36,218 bases of DNA from Candidatus Bathyarchaeota archaeon (GCA_003589585.1 QYYE01000007.1:1-36218), one strand, 5' to 3'; shown: positions 3,414-16,768, counted from the first letter of the stretch. Program-made: numbers and translations. The notes: generated from the letters alone by a model not told the origin.

Positions 3414-4751
3414 CTAGCTGCAAACGCCCTTTTTATTTTGCAGTTCAAGCGGGCATCCACCGCCGCAAACCTGAAGTTCAGGGCAATCTCTGCATTTAGC
3501 CTCTGCATAGTCGCGGCTGCGTAGTTTTACGGCTATGGGGTTGTTCCAGATGCGCTCCCAAGAGTCCACTAGGATGTTGCCTAAACTTTCAAAGTAGCTT
3601 TGGCAGGGATATACATCGCCATTTGGACCCACACAAGCGTTAATGAGGGCGGCAGTGCAGGATTTTACGCCTAAACCAAGCTGTACAGGGTTAAACTCGC
3701 AGTACTGCGTTGGAGTGTACCACAGAAACTTTAGCCCCAGCAGGTTGGCTTTGTCGCGGATTTGGGGCAAAACCACGCTGAGCTCTTCTATGGTTAGGGC
3801 GAACTGTTGGCTTGCAGCGTTGGCTCTTCCTGAGTAGATGAGGCTGTTGCAGCCGAAAGCATCCACATCCAGCGCCTTGATAAAATCAATTGTGTCTAAG
3901 AATTCGCCTGCGTTTTGTTTGTTTAGTGTTGCGTTGGTTGAGACGTAAATTTGCGATTGTACAGCGTTTTTTATGCCAGCCACCGTTTCAGCCCAGCTGC
4001 CCTGCACCTTTGTTATTGCGTCGTGGACCTGCGGTTTGTGGGATTCAAGGGTGATTTGTATAAAATCCAGCCCAGCCTTCTCCAGCGCGTCCACATAGGC
4101 TTTGTCTTTTAGTTTTCGCCCATTAGTGATTAACCCTGAAACCATGCCTTTCTGCTGTGCATAATGCAAAAACTCAGGCAAATCCTCGCGCAGGGTGGGT
4201 TCTCCGCCTGTGAAGGTAACGATGAAAACGCCGACTTGGCTGAGTTTGTCGATGACTTGCTTCCACTCTGCTGTGGTTAGTTCGGCTGTTTGGTGTGGTC
4301 CGCCAGCATAGCAGTGCACGCAGTCGTTTTGGCACCGAAAAGTCACGGCTAAGTCCATGCGTAGGGGCGCGGAGTAGTGGTAGCTGAAGGGCTCTTCCTT
4401 CGCGATTTCCAAAAAAGACACGGGGTCAACTTTTTCGGTTTGCGCCAGCGTGCTGATGGTGTAGACGAGTTTCTCATAATCCGCCTTTGCCTCCTCAGCG
4501 CTAACGCGGTATAGGCGGCGAATCTTCTTTAAAACCTCACTCTCGGGCAGTCCCTGCATGAAGTAGTAGGCGTAGGCAGCGGCGGTTTCGTTGAGGTGGA
4601 GCACGGTGTTTGCGTTGATGACCAGTACGCCTCTTTTGCCGTGTTCAATGCGCAGCTGAAGGGACATGCCGGCGAACTCGTCAGTGCCCCGATAGGTGAA
4701 CCTGCCCTCTGGAATCTCAGGCGAATGCAAGATTCTCTTTAACCTGCTCAT
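3414..4751 (-). CDS. Radical SAM/SPASM peptide-modifying enzyme with PqqD-like N-terminus
   Basis: A 445-residue enzyme. Residues about 38-105 look like a PqqD-type peptide-recognition domain: G-V-L-V-I-N followed by L-N-E-T-A-A and helices. The radical SAM core starts with Cys140-x3-Cys144-x2-Cys147, which bind the 4Fe-4S cluster that cleaves S-adenosylmethionine, followed by F-T-G-G-E-P-T. The C-terminal third is a SPASM domain with about eight cysteines in the order expected for auxiliary clusters, ending C-G-G-G-C-P. Enzymes of this layout modify ribosomally made peptides, for example by thioether formation. Its start lies 3 bases after the stop of a membrane protein with a ten-cysteine tail, the obvious candidate substrate. 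The exact chemistry cannot be read from sequence. Confidence 0.9.
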   Translation of the reverse strand: MSRLKRILHSPEIPEGRFTYRGTDEFAGMSLQLRIEHGKRGVLVINANTVLHLNETAAAYAYYFMQGLPESEVLKKIRRLYRVSAEEAKADYEKLVYTISTLAQTEKVDPVSFLEIAKEEPFSYHYSAPLRMDLAVTFRCQNDCVHCYAGGPHQTAELTTAEWKQVIDKLSQVGVFIVTFTGGEPTLREDLPEFLHYAQQKGMVSGLITNGRKLKDKAYVDALEKAGLDFIQITLESHKPQVHDAITKVQGSWAETVAGIKNAVQSQIYVSTNATLNKQNAGEFLDTIDFIKALDVDAFGCNSLIYSGRANAASQQFALTIEELSVVLPQIRDKANLLGLKFLWYTPTQYCEFNPVQLGLGVKSCTAALINACVGPNGDVYPCQSYFESLGNILVDSWERIWNNPIAVKLRSRDYAEAKCRDCPELQVCGGGCPLELQNKKGVCS

Positions 4752-4754
4752 CCC

Positions 4755-6383
4755 TTAACCAACTCCTCCCCCCGCGCACGCACAAGCACATGAAACACAC
4801 GCGCAGGCACAGGCGCAAGCTGCACAAGCGCAAACGCAGTCCGCTCCGGCTCGTGCTGGTTTGTGGGATGCTTTTGGCGGCGGCGGAACAATGGCGTTAG
4901 CGAACTTTTCCAGGCTGACTACGATGTTGTTTGAGGTGATTTCCACGGCTGTGGCGATGTTGTCTGCGAATTGTCCGCCTGGAATGCTTGGGGGCTTGCC
5001 CGATTGTGTGGGAACATTGATGTTTGGCTTGTAGGTAGGGCGGGGATTGTAGGTTGAGTAGCTGTACCACCACCAGAACCACAAGGGGTTAGGCTCAAAG
5101 GTGCGGTCTCTGAACACGGTCTCTGTGCGGGTGCGCTGGTTAGGGTCAAGCATAAGCCATAGCAACTGCTCATCATAAGCGTTCGAAGCCAACTCCACCG
5201 TGCCGGCTTGCTCCACTTGGCTCCATGCTTGAGATACGATTTTGACGTAGTAGTCCACGGTGTCTTTTCTGCTGTACCCATGCATCTTCTGCTCCACCGT
5301 GTCGCGCAGAAACATGATGGCTCTCGCCAGCTTCTCCTCATCCAGCGAGCCGTCCGCCCTTAGCGCTCTGAGAAAATCAATTTCGTAGTAGCGCAAGGGA
5401 AATTCCTTGGTTCCTGTTTTGTTCTCATATGGCGGCAACACTCGGAGTTTAAGCGACGGCTTAGTCTCTTCAGCCCAAACTGCCCTTTTCTGGAGCAGGC
5501 TGTAGAGAATGGCGGTGACAATTTGCGGCGGCTTTAGATCCAAAAGGTAAGAGGCTTCGACGGCGGTTAAACCTCGTTTTATTCCCAAGGTTTCCATGCT
5601 GACCCGCGGCGTGGAGTAGCTGCTTTTTCTGGTAGCCAAGAAAATAATTACCGCAAGCACAACAATGACGAGCCCCGCCAAAAGAAACAGCACCATGTAG
5701 CCCTCTAACTCTCCAAAACCACCGTCCGGCGGGGGGGTGAAATCTGGCAGGTACGGAGCTGGAAAAGAAACGCCGACAAGGAAGATTTCGTTGGGTTGCA
5801 GGACGGGTTTTTCCCAGTAAACCGCCAATCTGCCCTCCACTATGGAGGTACTGTTGTAGAAGACCTCTGTGGTTTTCACCTCGTCAACCGTTACGTCGGG
5901 CGGCAGAACAATTTGAATTCGCACGTCGTTGATGGGCACGTCTTGGAGCCATTGGGGCGCAAACTGCATCCCATAGTTGCCAGGGTTTGTTGTGTCGTTG
6001 AATATCATGCGTGCCACGTTTGTGGTGACTGTGAACCAGACGGTGTTTCCAGCGGTCAACGGCTCAGCAAGGTCAACTCTGACGCGATAATTGCTTCCGC
6101 TACTGTCATCTGTGGCTTGCAGTTGCCGCCCGAACTGGTCCACGGCTTCTCCCACCGTAAAGTCGCCGTTTGGTTGACCTAGCCGCACAAAGTTTATGGG
6201 GTCGCCTGAACTCAGCGTTACGGTAACGTTGTAGGTTAAGTCAACTGTTCCATCCTGGTTGATAAAAAGCTGTGCCCACTGGTGGTCAAAATTAAAAACC
6301 CTTTGAGCGCTGGCAACGCCAATCGACATAGACGCCACAGCCAACACAAAAACAACGACGAAAAGGATGCTGCGCTTCACCAT
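4755..6383 (-). CDS. DUF2207-type membrane protein with C-terminal ten-Cys Cys-Ala tail (candidate modified substrate)
   Basis: A 542-residue protein. Residues 1-26 are a signal peptide ending in A-S-A. Residues 27-215 form a beta-rich outside domain. One membrane helix spans about 229-251. A winged-helix-like cytoplasmic segment follows at 270-305, then a helical region and an aromatic stretch W-F-W-W-W-Y near 435-440. The layout matches DUF2207 proteins. The end is unusual: residues 516-536 hold ten cysteines alternating mainly with alanine, followed by A-G-G-G-V-G. There is no other cysteine in the protein. With this topology the tail is cytoplasmic, within reach of the radical SAM enzyme encoded 3 bases downstream. 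The start overlaps the preceding gene by 7 bases and is served by GAGGAG. The substrate role is inferred from context. Confidence 0.88.
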   Translation of the reverse strand: MVKRSILFVVVFVLAVASMSIGVASAQRVFNFDHQWAQLFINQDGTVDLTYNVTVTLSSGDPINFVRLGQPNGDFTVGEAVDQFGRQLQATDDSSGSNYRVRVDLAEPLTAGNTVWFTVTTNVARMIFNDTTNPGNYGMQFAPQWLQDVPINDVRIQIVLPPDVTVDEVKTTEVFYNSTSIVEGRLAVYWEKPVLQPNEIFLVGVSFPAPYLPDFTPPPDGGFGELEGYMVLFLLAGLVIVVLAVIIFLATRKSSYSTPRVSMETLGIKRGLTAVEASYLLDLKPPQIVTAILYSLLQKRAVWAEETKPSLKLRVLPPYENKTGTKEFPLRYYEIDFLRALRADGSLDEEKLARAIMFLRDTVEQKMHGYSRKDTVDYYVKIVSQAWSQVEQAGTVELASNAYDEQLLWLMLDPNQRTRTETVFRDRTFEPNPLWFWWWYSYSTYNPRPTYKPNINVPTQSGKPPSIPGGQFADNIATAVEITSNNIVVSLEKFANAIVPPPPKASHKPARAGADCVCACAACACACACVSCACACAGGGVG

Positions 6384-6730
6384 TTTGGCTCCTCAACAAC
6401 CTCAAACGTGGTACCACAATACGGACACTTAACATATGGCACTCCCTGAACTATCTTGATTTCGCGCGGGTTGATGCTGCCGCCGCAGTTAGGACAGCGG
6501 ATTTGGGCAGCACTCATTCTGCCAGAAACCTCCAACCGCTGAATCACAGTCTTCGGCTTACGCGTAACATAGTAAACCCCAACAATAATTGCAAGCCCAA
6601 TAATGAAGAGGATTCCGCTTGTCGCCAAACGCGTCGCAGTAGCCTGCACGGAAGCCGCAAGCGCAAAAATCACTGCAAAAAAGAACACCACCGCCGCGGC
6701 GATACCGCCGATAACAGCAATTATTCTCAT
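6377..6730 (-). CDS. Two-helix membrane protein with cytoplasmic zinc ribbon
   Basis: A 117-residue protein. It has two hydrophobic helices (about 3-27 and 36-56), a basic R-K-P-K stretch, and then a zinc ribbon with C79-P-N-C82 and C102-P-Y-C105. It is the first gene of a tight three-gene operon; its last codons overlap the start of the DUF2207-type protein by 7 bases. By position it may be a partner or scaffold for the Cys-tailed protein or its modifying enzyme. No closer family is recognised and no enzymatic motif is visible. Confidence 0.8.
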   Translation of the reverse strand: MRIIAVIGGIAAAVVFFFAVIFALAASVQATATRLATSGILFIIGLAIIVGVYYVTRKPKTVIQRLEVSGRMSAAQIRCPNCGGSINPREIKIVQGVPYVKCPYCGTTFEVVEEPKW

Positions 6731-6755: not shown

Positions 6756-6764
6756 AATTTAAAC
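6756..6764 (-). promoter_or_regulatory. TATA box of the zinc ribbon/DUF2207/radical SAM operon
   Basis: On the minus strand GTTTAAATT is centred about 30 bases before the ATG at 6730, so transcription should start only a few bases before the first codon. No Shine-Dalgarno sequence precedes that ATG, consistent with a leaderless first gene. Confidence 0.55.
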
Positions 6765-12040: not shown

Positions 12041-14323
12041 TTGCGCATAAAACTCAACGTCACAGGCATCGTTCAGGGCGTCGGCTTCCGACCGTTCATC
12101 TACCGCACGGCAGTGAAGCATGGCTTAGCAGGATACGTGCGCAACAGGGGTGATGCTGGAGTTGAAGTGCTCCTTGAGGGCGACGCGCAGAAAGTCAAGG
12201 GTTTTATGCGTGACTTGACTGAGCAAAAGCCGCCGCTAGCCCAAATCGACCAAGTTCAGACCAAGGAGCTTTCAGGCGAAAACCAGTACCGGCAATTTAC
12301 CATTTACAAGAGCACAGAGGAAGCGGAGCTTTCAGGCTCAGTCATCCCGCCAGACATAGCCATTTGCAACCAATGCCTCAAAGAGCTACGCGACCCCAAA
12401 AACCCACGCTTTGAGTACTTCTTCATAACCTGCACCGATTGCGGTCCACGCTTCACCATCATCGAGCGCCTGCCCTACGACCGAGAAAACACCACCATGC
12501 GCCAGTTCCCCCTCTGCGGTCTCTGCAAAAAAGAGTACGATGACCCAGCCAACAGGCGTTTCCACGCTCAAACCGTGGCGTGCCCGCCATGCGGACCAAA
12601 AGCCTACCTAACAACAAACACGGGCGAGATGGTTCAAGCCAAAGACCCAGTGCGGGAGGCTGGCAGGCTGCTCTCTGAGGGGCATGTTCTTGCCGCAAAA
12701 GGATATGGCGGCTTCCACATTGCGGCTTCAACAATCAAAGAAAAGCCCTTGCTGAGGCTTAGGGAAACCAAGCATCGTCGCGAGAAACCCTTCGCTATCA
12801 TGGCAAGGAGCTTGGAGGCTGCAAAAACCTTCGCCACAGTCAGCTCAAGAGAAGAGGAGTTGCTTTCTTCTCCTGCACGCCCAATCGTTCTACTAAACAA
12901 AAGCTCCAACTACAGCCTCTCAGGGCTTGTGGCTCCGAACCTGCATAATGTGGGTGTCATGCTGCCTTACACAGCCATGCACTACATGCTCTTTGACCAA
13001 GTGAGCGACATGGCGTTTGTGATGACTAGCGCCAACCCGCCAAACCAACCCATCGTAAAAGACAACCAAGAGGCACTAAGAACCCTTGGCGGCACAGTGG
13101 ATTACTTTTTGTTTCACAATCGCAACATTGCCCACCGATGTGACGACAGCGTCATGCGAGTCCACGGAGACCGCCAAGTTTTTCTTAGGCGAAGCCGAGG
13201 CTATGCCCCAGCACCCATACGGCTGAAAGCTAAAGCTAAACGTTGTGTCGTCGGTTTAGGCAGCGAATTAAACAACACAGCGTGCATACTGCTTGAGGAC
13301 AAAGCCTTCATCAGCCAACACATCGGCGATGTCGAGAACGTTGAAACACGCGGTTTCCTGCAAGAAGCCACCAGTCACCTAGCGCATTTGACCAACTGCA
13401 AAGGAGAAGTGGTGGCTTGCGATTTACACCCTAAATTCACCACAACCGCCATGGCAAAAGAAATGGCTGAACTGAACGGTTCACCGCTGGTTCAGGTACA
13501 ACATCACCATGCGCATGCCGCCGCTTTAATGGCAGAGCACAACTTGGAAGAGGTAATCGGCGTAGTCTGCGACGGATACGGCTATGGTACTGACGGAGGG
13601 GCTTGGGGCGGCGAAGTCCTGTTCTGCACGCGCGGGTCAATAGAGTTTGTGCATCTTGCCCATTTGGAGCCTCAACTTTTGCTTGGAGGCGACACAGCCA
13701 GCCGTTACCCATTGCGCGTGGCTGCTGCTATGCTTGCCAAAAGCGGCGAAAACGTTGAGTCTTGGCTGATGCAAAACAGTGCTCATTTGCCATATGGAGC
13801 GGCAGAGGCAAAACTAATCCTAAGCCAGCTGCAGAAGGGCGGTGGTTCGGTTGAGACGACGAGTTGCGGCAGGGTTTTGGACGCTGTGTCTGCTGTCTTG
13901 AGGGTTTGTTTTGAGCGCAGTTATGAGGGTGAGCCTGCCATGAAGCTGGAATCCGCTGCGATGGGTGGCACGGATGTGTTGAATCTTAAACCAGTTATGC
14001 ATAGTGACATACTGGATACAACGATAATGCTTAGAGCCATCTCTGACAACATTGGAAAAGTTTCAGTTGCCAATTTAGCTTATTCTGCCCACGCTTACCT
14101 AGCAAGAGGTTTAGCATCCTTGGCAGTGCAGAAAGCTATGGCTCAAGGTGTTAGAACGGTTGGTTTCTCTGGCGGCGCAGCCTGCAACCAAATCCTCACC
14201 CAAACCATGCGCAAAACAGTGGAGTCCGCTGGGCTGCGGTTTGTGGTTCATGAGCTGGTTCCAGCGGGTGATGGCGGGGTTTCGTTTGGGCAGGCAGTTG
14301 TGGCTGGTTTTTCCGATTTTTAG
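12041..14323 (+). CDS. hypF: Carbamoyltransferase HypF ([NiFe]-hydrogenase maturation)
   Basis: A 760-residue protein of full family length. It makes the carbamoyl group that becomes the cyanide ligands of the [NiFe] site, using carbamoyl phosphate and ATP, and passes it to the HypE C-terminal Cys. Domains in order: acylphosphatase (1-90, G-I-V-Q-G-V-G-F-R-P); two zinc fingers with CxxC pairs at 109/112, 131/134, 159/162 and 181/184; a YrdC-like domain (about 200-385, A-K-G-Y-G-G-F-H); and a Kae1-like domain with H-H-H-A-H-A-A near 488 and D-G-Y-G-Y-G-T-D-G. The start is TTG, supported by the full acylphosphatase motif directly after it. hypC follows after 49 bases. Confidence 0.97.
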   Translation: MRIKLNVTGIVQGVGFRPFIYRTAVKHGLAGYVRNRGDAGVEVLLEGDAQKVKGFMRDLTEQKPPLAQIDQVQTKELSGENQYRQFTIYKSTEEAELSGSVIPPDIAICNQCLKELRDPKNPRFEYFFITCTDCGPRFTIIERLPYDRENTTMRQFPLCGLCKKEYDDPANRRFHAQTVACPPCGPKAYLTTNTGEMVQAKDPVREAGRLLSEGHVLAAKGYGGFHIAASTIKEKPLLRLRETKHRREKPFAIMARSLEAAKTFATVSSREEELLSSPARPIVLLNKSSNYSLSGLVAPNLHNVGVMLPYTAMHYMLFDQVSDMAFVMTSANPPNQPIVKDNQEALRTLGGTVDYFLFHNRNIAHRCDDSVMRVHGDRQVFLRRSRGYAPAPIRLKAKAKRCVVGLGSELNNTACILLEDKAFISQHIGDVENVETRGFLQEATSHLAHLTNCKGEVVACDLHPKFTTTAMAKEMAELNGSPLVQVQHHHAHAAALMAEHNLEEVIGVVCDGYGYGTDGGAWGGEVLFCTRGSIEFVHLAHLEPQLLLGGDTASRYPLRVAAAMLAKSGENVESWLMQNSAHLPYGAAEAKLILSQLQKGGGSVETTSCGRVLDAVSAVLRVCFERSYEGEPAMKLESAAMGGTDVLNLKPVMHSDILDTTIMLRAISDNIGKVSVANLAYSAHAYLARGLASLAVQKAMAQGVRTVGFSGGAACNQILTQTMRKTVESAGLRFVVHELVPAGDGGVSFGQAVVAGFSDF

Positions 14324-14372
14324 ACCAATCTGTTTTTATCGCTGATTAAAGCGTTTTAAATACTGATTAAGC

Positions 14373-14600
14373 ATGTGTTTAGCGATTCCAGCCAAAGTAA
14401 TGAGCATAGACGGCATAAAAGCCAACGTAGATTTTGGTCAAGGCGTTCTGCGAGAAGTTAATGTGACGCTTGTTGACGCTAAAGTAGGCGACTACGTTTT
14501 GGTTCACGCAGGCTATGCCATACAAGTTATGGAAGAAAAAGAAGCTCTAGAAACCCTAAGTTTATGGAACGAGATTTTAGCATCTGGACAACAAGAATAA
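14373..14600 (+). CDS. hypC: Hydrogenase maturation chaperone HypC
   Basis: A 75-residue protein starting M-C-L-A-I-P-A-K-V, the HypC signature in which Cys2 is essential. It folds as a small beta barrel and binds HypD and the hydrogenase large-subunit precursor while carrying the Fe(CN)2CO unit. It lies between hypF and hypD and hypD follows after 18 bases. No clear Shine-Dalgarno sequence precedes the ATG; GTTTTAAATA at 14353-14362 is close but too near the start for an ordinary TATA box. Confidence 0.97.
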   Translation: MCLAIPAKVMSIDGIKANVDFGQGVLREVNVTLVDAKVGDYVLVHAGYAIQVMEEKEALETLSLWNEILASGQQE

Positions 14601-14618
14601 AGGGGGCAGTGAAGAGGT

Positions 14619-15707
14619 TTGACTGAAAAACTCCGCTTCCGCAACCCAGAACTCGCAAAAACCATAGCTACAAAAATCCAAGAGATCGCACCGAAAAAGG
14701 GAAAAATAAAAATCTGCCACGTATGCGGCACACACGAGTGGACAATAACCCACTTTGGCCTGCGCAGCCTTTTGCCCAAAAACGTTGAGGTTATTGCGGG
14801 TCCAGGATGCCCCGTCTGCATCGTTCCCGCGGCGGAAATTGATGAGGCAGTGCAGTTAGCCAAAAAAGGCATTGTCATAACCTGCTTTGGGGATGTTCTG
14901 CGGGTTCCAGGCAGTGAGACGTCACTGTTGGAAGCCAAAGCCGTTGGGGCTGACGTGCGGGTGGTTTACGCGGTTTCTGACGCGGTGGAAATGGCCAAAA
15001 AAGAACCGGACAAACAGTTTGTGTTTTCCGCGGTCGGCTTTGAAACGACAGCTCCTTCCACGGCGGTTGAGGCACTGGGTGATTTGCCTGGAAATTTTAG
15101 TTTTTTGGTTTCTCACCGTTTAATCCCCCCCGCCATGGAGCTCTTGCTGGGCGTCGGAGACCTAGAAATTGACGGTTTTATTGCTCCTGGGCATGTGAGC
15201 GCGATTATCGGGTTGAAACCTTACGAGTTGTTTCCGCGGGTTTATCGGATGCCTACGGTTGTTGCCGGCTTTGAACCGGTCGACGTGCTGATGGCAGTTT
15301 ACATGATTCTGAAACAGCACAGCGAAGGCAAGGCAAGACTTGAGAACGAGTATCCACGCGTGGTGAAACCTGAGGGTAACTTGAAAGCGTTGGAAATGAT
15401 GGACAAAGCCTTCACCGTCACAGGCGGTAACTGGCGGGGAATCGGCAGGCTCCCTGACTCGGCTCTGCAACTTCGCGAATCGCTCAAGCAGTTTGATGCA
15501 AGAGAAAAATTCGGCGTTCATGTGGAGCAGGGCAAGGACATCTTGCTTGGATGCGAATGCCACCTTGTAATCATCGGCAAAATCAAACCCGACGAGTGCC
15601 CCATGTTCATGAAGGCTTGCACGCCCGCAAAACCCGTTGGCGCCTGCATGGTCAGCAGTGAAGGCACCTGCCGCGTCTGGGCAAAAAACGTAGCTGTTCA
15701 GGCCTAG
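14619..15707 (+). CDS. hypD: Hydrogenase maturation protein HypD
   Basis: A 362-residue iron-sulfur protein that, with HypC, assembles the Fe(CN)2CO unit. Expected cysteine motifs are present in order: C-H-V-C-G-T-H-E, G-P-G-C-P-V-C near the first third, G-C-E-C-H, and a C-terminal C-T-P...G-A-C...G-T-C set that holds the 4Fe-4S cluster and redox thiols. The start is TTG; AGGGGG lies 12 bases upstream and GAGG immediately before it. It forms an operon with hypF and hypC. Its stop codon overlaps that of hypE on the other strand in a shared CTAG. Confidence 0.97.
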   Translation: MTEKLRFRNPELAKTIATKIQEIAPKKGKIKICHVCGTHEWTITHFGLRSLLPKNVEVIAGPGCPVCIVPAAEIDEAVQLAKKGIVITCFGDVLRVPGSETSLLEAKAVGADVRVVYAVSDAVEMAKKEPDKQFVFSAVGFETTAPSTAVEALGDLPGNFSFLVSHRLIPPAMELLLGVGDLEIDGFIAPGHVSAIIGLKPYELFPRVYRMPTVVAGFEPVDVLMAVYMILKQHSEGKARLENEYPRVVKPEGNLKALEMMDKAFTVTGGNWRGIGRLPDSALQLRESLKQFDAREKFGVHVEQGKDILLGCECHLVIIGKIKPDECPMFMKACTPAKPVGACMVSSEGTCRVWAKNVAVQA

Positions 15708-16768
15708 CAGATTCTGGGGACTGGGTCGCCGATTGGCCGCGCGATTATTCTTTTGCCACCGACCAGCGTCTGCATGGCTACGCCCTTGAACTGGGTTGTG
15801 GCTTCCCCGATTACTTGGGCATCTTTGCCTTCAGGGGTCTTCTTCAAAAACTCCAAGACCTCCTGCGCCTTCTCTGGGACTGCGCCGATGATTATTTTGC
15901 CCTCATTGCCAATCTCTAAGGGGTCTAAGCCGAGCATTTCGCAGGCTGTCTGCACATCCTCTCGAATCGGCACCTTGTCCTCCTCTATTAGTATGCCGAC
16001 TTTGGATTTTTCCGCATACTCATTTAACGCGTCAGCTAAGCCTCCGCGTGTCGGGTCTTTCATGGCTACCACACCGCCGACTTCGCCAAGCAGCTTTTGT
16101 ATCATGCGGTTTAGGGGTTTTACGTCTGATTGGATTTGGCTTCCAAACGTTAATCCCTGCTGAGCCGAAAGCACCGCCAAGCCGTGGTCACCAATGGTGC
16201 CTGATAAAATAATCTTGTCACCAGCGCTCAAGTTGGAATCAAGCACCCAACGAGAAGCAAACCCACTCCTGTACTGCTTAACCACTTTGAGGTTGCTCTC
16301 CAGTGCAGCGGTTCTTTTGCCAATTCCTGATACGTTCATGACGCAGCCGCCCAAACTGCCACGCTCAACCACCTTCGTATCGCCCGTGACTATGCCAACG
16401 TCAGCTTCAAGGCAGGTCTGCCTCATGCTCGCCAAAATCCTCTCCAAATCAGACATCGGCAAGCCTTCCTCAAGGACCAAACCGCAAGCCAAAGCGTAAG
16501 GCTGCGCACCTAGCGCTGATATGTCGTTTACTGTGCCTGAGATGGCTATGCGTCCGATGTCGCCGCCGGGAAAAAAGATTGGTTTAACCGCATGAGAATC
16601 GCTTTTGAACACGACATCGCCAACCACCGCAGCATCGTCCATGGCTTCAAGCGGAACGTCTGCGCTGCCTACGCCGCCAAAATATTTTACGACAACGTTT
16701 TTGACTAGGTCATGCATGACTGTGCCGCCTGCACCGTGCAGCATCGTTATCTTGGTATTTTTTTCCAC
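15704..16768 (-). CDS. hypE: Hydrogenase maturation protein HypE
   Basis: A 354-residue AIR-synthase-like ATPase that dehydrates the carbamoyl group on its C-terminal cysteine to thiocyanate. H-G-A-G-G near the start, M-D-D-A-A, G-G-D-I-G-R and D-P-T-R-G-G are visible, and the protein ends P-R-I-C, the hallmark acceptor tail. The start is GTG with AGGAG upstream. It is encoded opposite hypFCD and converges on hypD, sharing 4 bases. Upstream on its strand GTTTATTTTTCAC (16816-16828) could hold its TATA element. The protein looks complete and functional. Confidence 0.97.
   Translation of the reverse strand: MEKNTKITMLHGAGGTVMHDLVKNVVVKYFGGVGSADVPLEAMDDAAVVGDVVFKSDSHAVKPIFFPGGDIGRIAISGTVNDISALGAQPYALACGLVLEEGLPMSDLERILASMRQTCLEADVGIVTGDTKVVERGSLGGCVMNVSGIGKRTAALESNLKVVKQYRSGFASRWVLDSNLSAGDKIILSGTIGDHGLAVLSAQQGLTFGSQIQSDVKPLNRMIQKLLGEVGGVVAMKDPTRGGLADALNEYAEKSKVGILIEEDKVPIREDVQTACEMLGLDPLEIGNEGKIIIGAVPEKAQEVLEFLKKTPEGKDAQVIGEATTQFKGVAMQTLVGGKRIIARPIGDPVPRIC

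Follow-up and report, generated by a model that had tools for sequence, protein, structure and literature searches.

What does a radical SAM/SPASM enzyme of the peptide-modifying type act on when the gene beside it encodes a large membrane protein that ends in alternating cysteine and alanine residues? This question is raised by a three-gene cassette in the window, as the whole stretch of 36,218 nucleotides of Bathyarchaeota DNA analysed here is called. The cassette, the conservation of the Cys-Ala tail and the distribution of tail and enzyme across genomes are described below, followed by the chemistry that the enzyme might perform and the explanations that compete with it.

The cassette and its products

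The cassette consists of three open reading frames on the minus strand, which encode, in the direction of reading, a zinc-ribbon membrane protein of 117 amino acids (6377..6730), the membrane protein with the Cys-Ala tail, hereafter the carrier, of 542 amino acids (4755..6383), and a radical SAM/SPASM enzyme of 445 amino acids (3414..4751). The reading frames are as tightly linked as the first-pass annotation had described, with a 7-base overlap between the first two genes (6377-6383) and a 3-base gap between the second and the third (4752-4754). About 30 nt before the zinc-ribbon ATG at 6730, a candidate TATA-like element, TTTAAA, can be read from the sequence on the same strand (6758-6763), which would make the near-leaderless promoter of the first-pass annotation plausible. 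The order zinc ribbon, carrier, enzyme is retained across distant phyla, and the flanking genes differ. Neighbouring genes for a HAD-family protein and a ribose-5-phosphate isomerase were considered as further parts of the cassette and rejected, since they adjoin it in close relatives only. Elsewhere in the window (12041-16768) lie genes that resemble hypF, hypD and hypE of hydrogenase maturation, which would suit an anaerobe.

The zinc-ribbon protein was characterized from its reading frame and a transmembrane scan. Two transmembrane segments (residues 3-21 and 35-53) are followed by a C-terminal CxxC...CxxC ribbon and the terminal residues EEPKW, and its matches to zinc-ribbon families in Pfam are sub-threshold. 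A zinc-ribbon gene with an EEPKW-type end (E-x-P-x-W) lies directly upstream of the carrier gene in 79 of the 140 loci examined; 22 of the 61 loci without such a gene are cut on that side.

The carrier was described from its reading frame, a transmembrane scan and an AlphaFold2 model (pLDDT 82), in which a signal or transmembrane segment is predicted to be followed by an exported beta-sandwich, one transmembrane segment, a region of winged-helix-like and helical structure and, at the end, a disordered tail. The exported domain (residues 29-208; 5760..6299, minus strand), delimited by the model and a fold search, has a predicted fold that resembles ribophorin I and the N-terminal domain of M1 aminopeptidases. 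The second transmembrane segment covers residues 231-249 in the transmembrane scan (5637..5693, minus strand) and residues 223-255 in the AlphaFold2 model. Because basic residues (ATRK) come after this segment, the C-terminal part of the carrier is predicted to be cytosolic, which would place the tail in the compartment where the enzyme works. Assignment of the carrier to DUF2207, as originally proposed, stands as a remote similarity but not as family membership: the window carrier scores 13.2 bits against PF09972, below the gathering cut-off of 24.4 (Pfam E=0.1), the best DUF2207 score among 59 carrier homologues is E=1.6e-5, and the hhalign alignment with Escherichia coli YciQ (E=1.5e-4) is confined to the cytoplasmic domain. 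No NCBIfam family matched the carrier, and carriers as a group range from 320 to 800 residues.

The enzyme was defined by its reading frame, Pfam matches and a structure model. Its radical SAM motif CX3CX2C (C140/C144/C147; 4311..4334, minus strand) is invariant in 56 homologues, in which the full set of SPASM cysteines is likewise invariant or nearly so. The SPASM domain (3420..3659, minus strand), recognized by Pfam (7.9e-11) and by invariant columns, has the motif C365-x12-G378-x4-C383, C420-x2-C423-x5-C429-x3-C433, and C444. The PqqD-like recognition domain reported earlier also withstands closer inspection, as residues 30-104 (4440..4664, minus strand) adopt the beta3-alpha3 fold of an RRE in the AlphaFold2 model with a pLDDT of about 90; the corresponding Pfam PqqD match is sub-threshold (E=5e-4). 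By both sequence and fold, the closest solved structures are SkfB, SuiB, CteB and PqqE, and the fold matches further include anSME and the radical SAM epimerase EpeE. The enzyme falls below every listed NCBIfam equivalog cut-off, the best being NirJ2 (141 bits versus 500). Matches to pVip in PADLOC (E=1e-21) span the generic radical SAM core only, and the RRE and SPASM domains argue against viperin specificity. A defence system is regarded as unlikely, since the PADLOC matches are generic radical SAM cores and one generic methyltransferase.

Conservation of the Cys-Ala tail

The carrier ends in CVCACAACACACACVSCACACAGGGVG (residues 516-542; 4758..4838, minus strand), a tail with the ten cysteines that had been counted at the outset and, from its conservation, the putative site of modification. 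Among Bathyarchaeia homologues the mean pairwise identity of the tail is 0.92 versus 0.49 for the whole protein, the latter being a mean over 25-column windows of which the highest clear of the tail reaches 0.70; nearly all of the archaeal homologues used for the tail value came from a whole-protein search. The 20 residues just before the tail have an identity of 0.41 in the archaeal homologues. An alignment of 59 carriers, partly ascertained by the tail pattern, has 17 invariant columns, 10 of which fall in the last 18 residues. The alanine positions and the GG(G) end of the tail are as fixed as the cysteines.

In 34 genes selected for the peptide CACACVSCACACA, each of the four possible third bases occurs among the alanine codons of the tail, and both possible ones among its cysteine codons, with no residue change. 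Since third codon positions are saturated, selection on the tail acts on the peptide and not on the DNA. A DNA-level cause of the underlying TGYGCN repeat, such as a repeat or Z-DNA tract, was rejected because every synonymous base is used. The commonest tail forms are CACACACAGCACACAGGGR (40 among the matches listed) and variants in strand length. A putative Lachnospiraceae reading frame with a long Cys-Gly alternation (CGCGCG...) was also seen (L090:1-211).

Co-occurrence of tail and enzyme

Searching with the whole protein, without selection for the tail, recovered the carrier from 34 of the 91 family genomes and from 20 of the 300 phylum genomes. In the loci that were read and where the contig continues, the tail is present and near letter-identical and the enzyme adjoins, with one exception (L038) at a contig end. 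At one locus (L041) the enzyme is found on the opposite side of the carrier, and at another (L030, genome G075) frame changes and a TAG stop interrupt the enzyme gene, with the carrier tail intact. When the 300 phylum genomes were scanned with the degenerate DNA pattern CXCXCX-x-CXCXC, 18 genomes matched, all of them carrier genomes. The enzyme (E<=1e-50) is present in 19 of the 300, including 18 carrier genomes, which corresponds to a hypergeometric value of 1e-25 (20 carrier, 19 enzyme, 18 both); the carrier gene is at a contig end in the two carrier-only genomes (G005 and G237).

The same association is found in a second unselected sample, a Chloroflexi class, where the tail pattern occurs in 18 of 199 genomes, every one of them within the set of 25 genomes that have a strong enzyme match (hypergeometric 3e-20), strong being at least 39% identity, with a clear gap to a second group at 32-37%. 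The hypergeometric values ignore relatedness and thus overstate independence; the pattern of tail and enzyme is far beyond chance. Seven Chloroflexi genomes have the enzyme and fall outside the tail pattern: in three the Cys tail is shorter (of the SCACAGCACACAGGGR type), in three a contig end truncates the locus, and in the seventh (G384, L235) the enzyme adjoins a methyltransferase and no tail was detected in the genome. A tail protein was likewise not detected in genome G322, which has an orthologous enzyme (L227/L241) and is the one genome of the phylum sample with the enzyme alone. These two tail-less genomes possibly reflect gaps in the MAG or assembly, or a different substrate. The second enzyme group, at 32-37% identity, occurs in 24 of the 199 Chloroflexi-class genomes, with the exact tail in none of them.

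The first-pass annotation had named a large number of tails lacking an adjacent radical SAM gene as the observation that would speak against its reading. This test did not refute it. The enzyme was found at the same locus for 87 of the 100 tails listed, and 81 of these 87 same-locus cases, among the matches listed, place it within 300 bases of the carrier as measured by ORF ends. The other 13 listed tails are mostly cut by the edge of the locus; genome-wide searches for 12 of them recovered an enzyme homologue in every case (ten at E<=1e-95, one at 1e-76 and one weaker, at 1e-36), and the last of the 13 (L133) is a fragment of 924 bases. Because these loci were chosen by their tail, the conservation of their tails is not independent evidence, whereas the adjoining enzyme is. 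Distances between carriers and between enzymes correlate (r=0.94), a value that shared vertical descent would also yield, and co-occurrence alone does not identify the tail as the substrate.

Phylogenetic range and locus variants

A scan of the DNA of genome contigs for the tail pattern yielded at least 119 stretches, at least 100 of them true C-terminal tails, in more than 10 phyla; 19 of the 119 listed matches were discarded as chance or unrelated Cys-rich frames. The archaeal range among the matches listed includes Bathyarchaeota, other Thermoproteota, Heimdall-, Hod- and Sigynarchaeota, Methanocella, and Thermococci/Theionarchaea. The bacterial range among the matches listed includes Chloroflexota, Aminicenantes, Acidobacteriota, Zixi-, Coates- and Edwardsbacteria, Fermentibacterota, Planctomycetota, Armatimonadota, Krumholzibacteria, an actinobacterial lineage, and Clostridia. 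The archaeal setting in which the cassette was first placed is too narrow, as many bacterial phyla also have it. In a tree of the enzyme, the sequences of Chloroflexota, of Asgard archaea and of other archaea each form a supported group, which would fit an old system passed on largely within host lineages. Spread by phage was rejected, since the two matches on viral contigs sit in other reading frames, without carrier or enzyme.

The cassette varies in composition. Many Chloroflexota loci have a second enzyme homologue without CX3CX2C and with hardly any cysteines left (typically 1-4 per ~400 residues), a pseudo-radical-SAM partner whose gene lies directly or soon after that of the active enzyme (L073:4111-5316, L084:3469-4677, L095:2118-3296). 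A gene for a class I methyltransferase (Methyltransf_11) is present downstream in at least 25 bacterial loci, such as L103:391-1125, and one also adjoins the tail-less enzyme of G384. Clostridia and some further phyla have the enzyme upstream and a reduced carrier, made up of an ectodomain, one transmembrane segment, a Gly/Ser linker and the tail, which bears a short extension, AGCSxKDF or AGCSRK (L078, L141, L148, L174, L087, L100, L102, L165). The minimal carrier of L174 has a zinc-ribbon-like CxxC...CxxC segment within the linker.

A putative tail modification and its alternatives

An enzyme of a peptide-modifying type, together with a near-invariant, peptide-like element on an otherwise drifting protein, fits an enzyme-substrate pair. 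The original suggestion that the tail of a large membrane protein is the substrate is supported by the near-complete pairing of tail and enzyme, by the conservation of the tail and by the family of the enzyme; the substrate role is an inference, and the enzyme probably modifies the carrier tail. The carrier would hold its beta-sandwich outside the cell, cross the membrane and leave the Cys-Ala tail in the cytosol, where the RRE of the enzyme would bind the carrier, either at the linker or at the tail. The enzyme would make 5'-deoxyadenosyl radicals and then alter the tail. Thioether bonds are a first guess because the cysteines are invariant and the enzyme is sactisynthase-like; the sulfurs of the tail cysteines would be joined to backbone or side-chain carbons of the tail, and a tail of the form CACAC-xx-CACAC-AGGG could form a hairpin with Cys facing Cys. 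Thioether formation, the likeliest single reaction, is proposed tentatively, at somewhat less than an even chance. The zinc-ribbon membrane protein may be an accessory, probably in contact with the carrier, and any downstream function, such as the sensing of redox state or metals by anaerobes, is a guess.

Other reactions on the same substrate have to be considered, such as epimerisation, oxidation of cysteine to formylglycine, or desulfurisation. The presence of EpeE and anSME among the fold matches points in this direction, and the strict two-residue alternation would suit an enzyme acting at every second position; however, the top fold matches, SkfB, SuiB and CteB, are sactisynthases and cyclases, and invariant cysteines suit S-linked products. 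Neither of these counterpoints is decisive, and a non-thioether reaction is regarded as rather unlikely. The tail may instead be an unmodified, metallothionein-like ligand for metal or iron-sulfur, with the enzyme acting on another component of the pathway. The cysteines are invariant and their dense CxC spacing would bind soft metals, but the alanine positions and the GG(G) end are fixed as strongly, and a metal site would need no enzyme with a peptide-binding RRE alongside in nearly every genome, so that this explanation is improbable.

An equally low probability is given to the carrier being a RiPP precursor from which the tail is cleaved and released as a small modified peptide. The linker ahead of the tail is variable (41% identity), as a cleavage region might be, and the maturase is of the RRE type, yet carriers are 320-800 residues long with conserved exported and membrane domains, and no recurrent protease or exporter gene was found among the ORFs of the 100 loci listed. 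Ordinary DUF2207 proteins, including E. coli YciQ, end Gly-rich, and the tail could in principle have arisen by low-complexity drift of such an end, or the gene order by chance; the residues are invariant despite saturated synonymous change, and the co-occurrence statistics (1e-25 and 3e-20) make this explanation exceedingly improbable.

Relation to known systems

A search of the open literature yielded no paper that joins DUF2207 and radical SAM, and nothing closer than the TIGR04222 membrane proteins, which have been proposed as substrates of adjoining MNIO (DUF692) enzymes (PMC12452194). Both systems pair a large membrane protein that has a Cys-containing, low-complexity C-terminal tail with the gene of a peptide-modifying metalloenzyme, an MNIO there and a radical SAM enzyme here (PMC12452194). 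The TIGR04222 tails are Ser/Gly-rich with scattered cysteines and predicted to be periplasmic, whereas the present tails are near-invariant and predicted to be cytosolic; moreover, one third of the TIGR04222 genomes lack an MNIO (PMC12452194), and the present tail and enzyme are almost always paired. The carrier has no match to NCBIfam TIGR04222 at E<=0.01. DUF2207 proteins such as E. coli YciQ and Streptococcus mutans SMU.243 (PMC10457818) share with the carrier a signal, an exported domain, a transmembrane segment, a cytoplasmic domain and a low-complexity tail, but in YciQ-like members the tail is Gly-rich and free of cysteine.

With the RRE-bearing RiPP maturases SkfB, AlbA, SuiB, CteB and PqqE, which provide its best sequence and fold matches in the PDB, the enzyme shares the order RRE, radical SAM, SPASM. 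Those enzymes act with a short leader-core peptide, whereas the partner here is a large membrane protein; no recurrent ORF fitting a short leader-core precursor was found beside the enzyme among the ORFs of at least 100 aa that were clustered from the 100 loci listed. Radical SAM enzymes that modify whole proteins include anSME, which acts on sulfatases, QhpD and Mmp10. Their substrates are proteins, as proposed here, but their families and target motifs differ, and we know of none that acts on the Cys-Ala tail of a membrane protein.

What appears to be new is the joining of RRE-guided radical SAM modification, itself known, to a putative substrate that is a large membrane protein. Because peptide-modifying radical SAM enzymes are sought beside small precursor peptides, a family with such a substrate would be missed. 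It is conceivable, though on balance doubtful, that the cassette represents an ancient system, shared by Bacteria and Archaea, whereby multiple cross-links are introduced into the cytosolic Cys-Ala tail of a membrane-spanning, receptor-like protein by a radical SAM enzyme, in many cases accompanied by a Cys-free pseudo-enzyme, to give a functional element and thus a new class of protein modification with no secreted peptide. If the proposal is true, it would add a protein modification that Bathyarchaeia and Asgard archaea have in common with Chloroflexota, Planctomycetota and Clostridia, and whose genes are present in named strains such as Ornatilinea apprima P3M-1 and Leptolinea sp. HRD-7.
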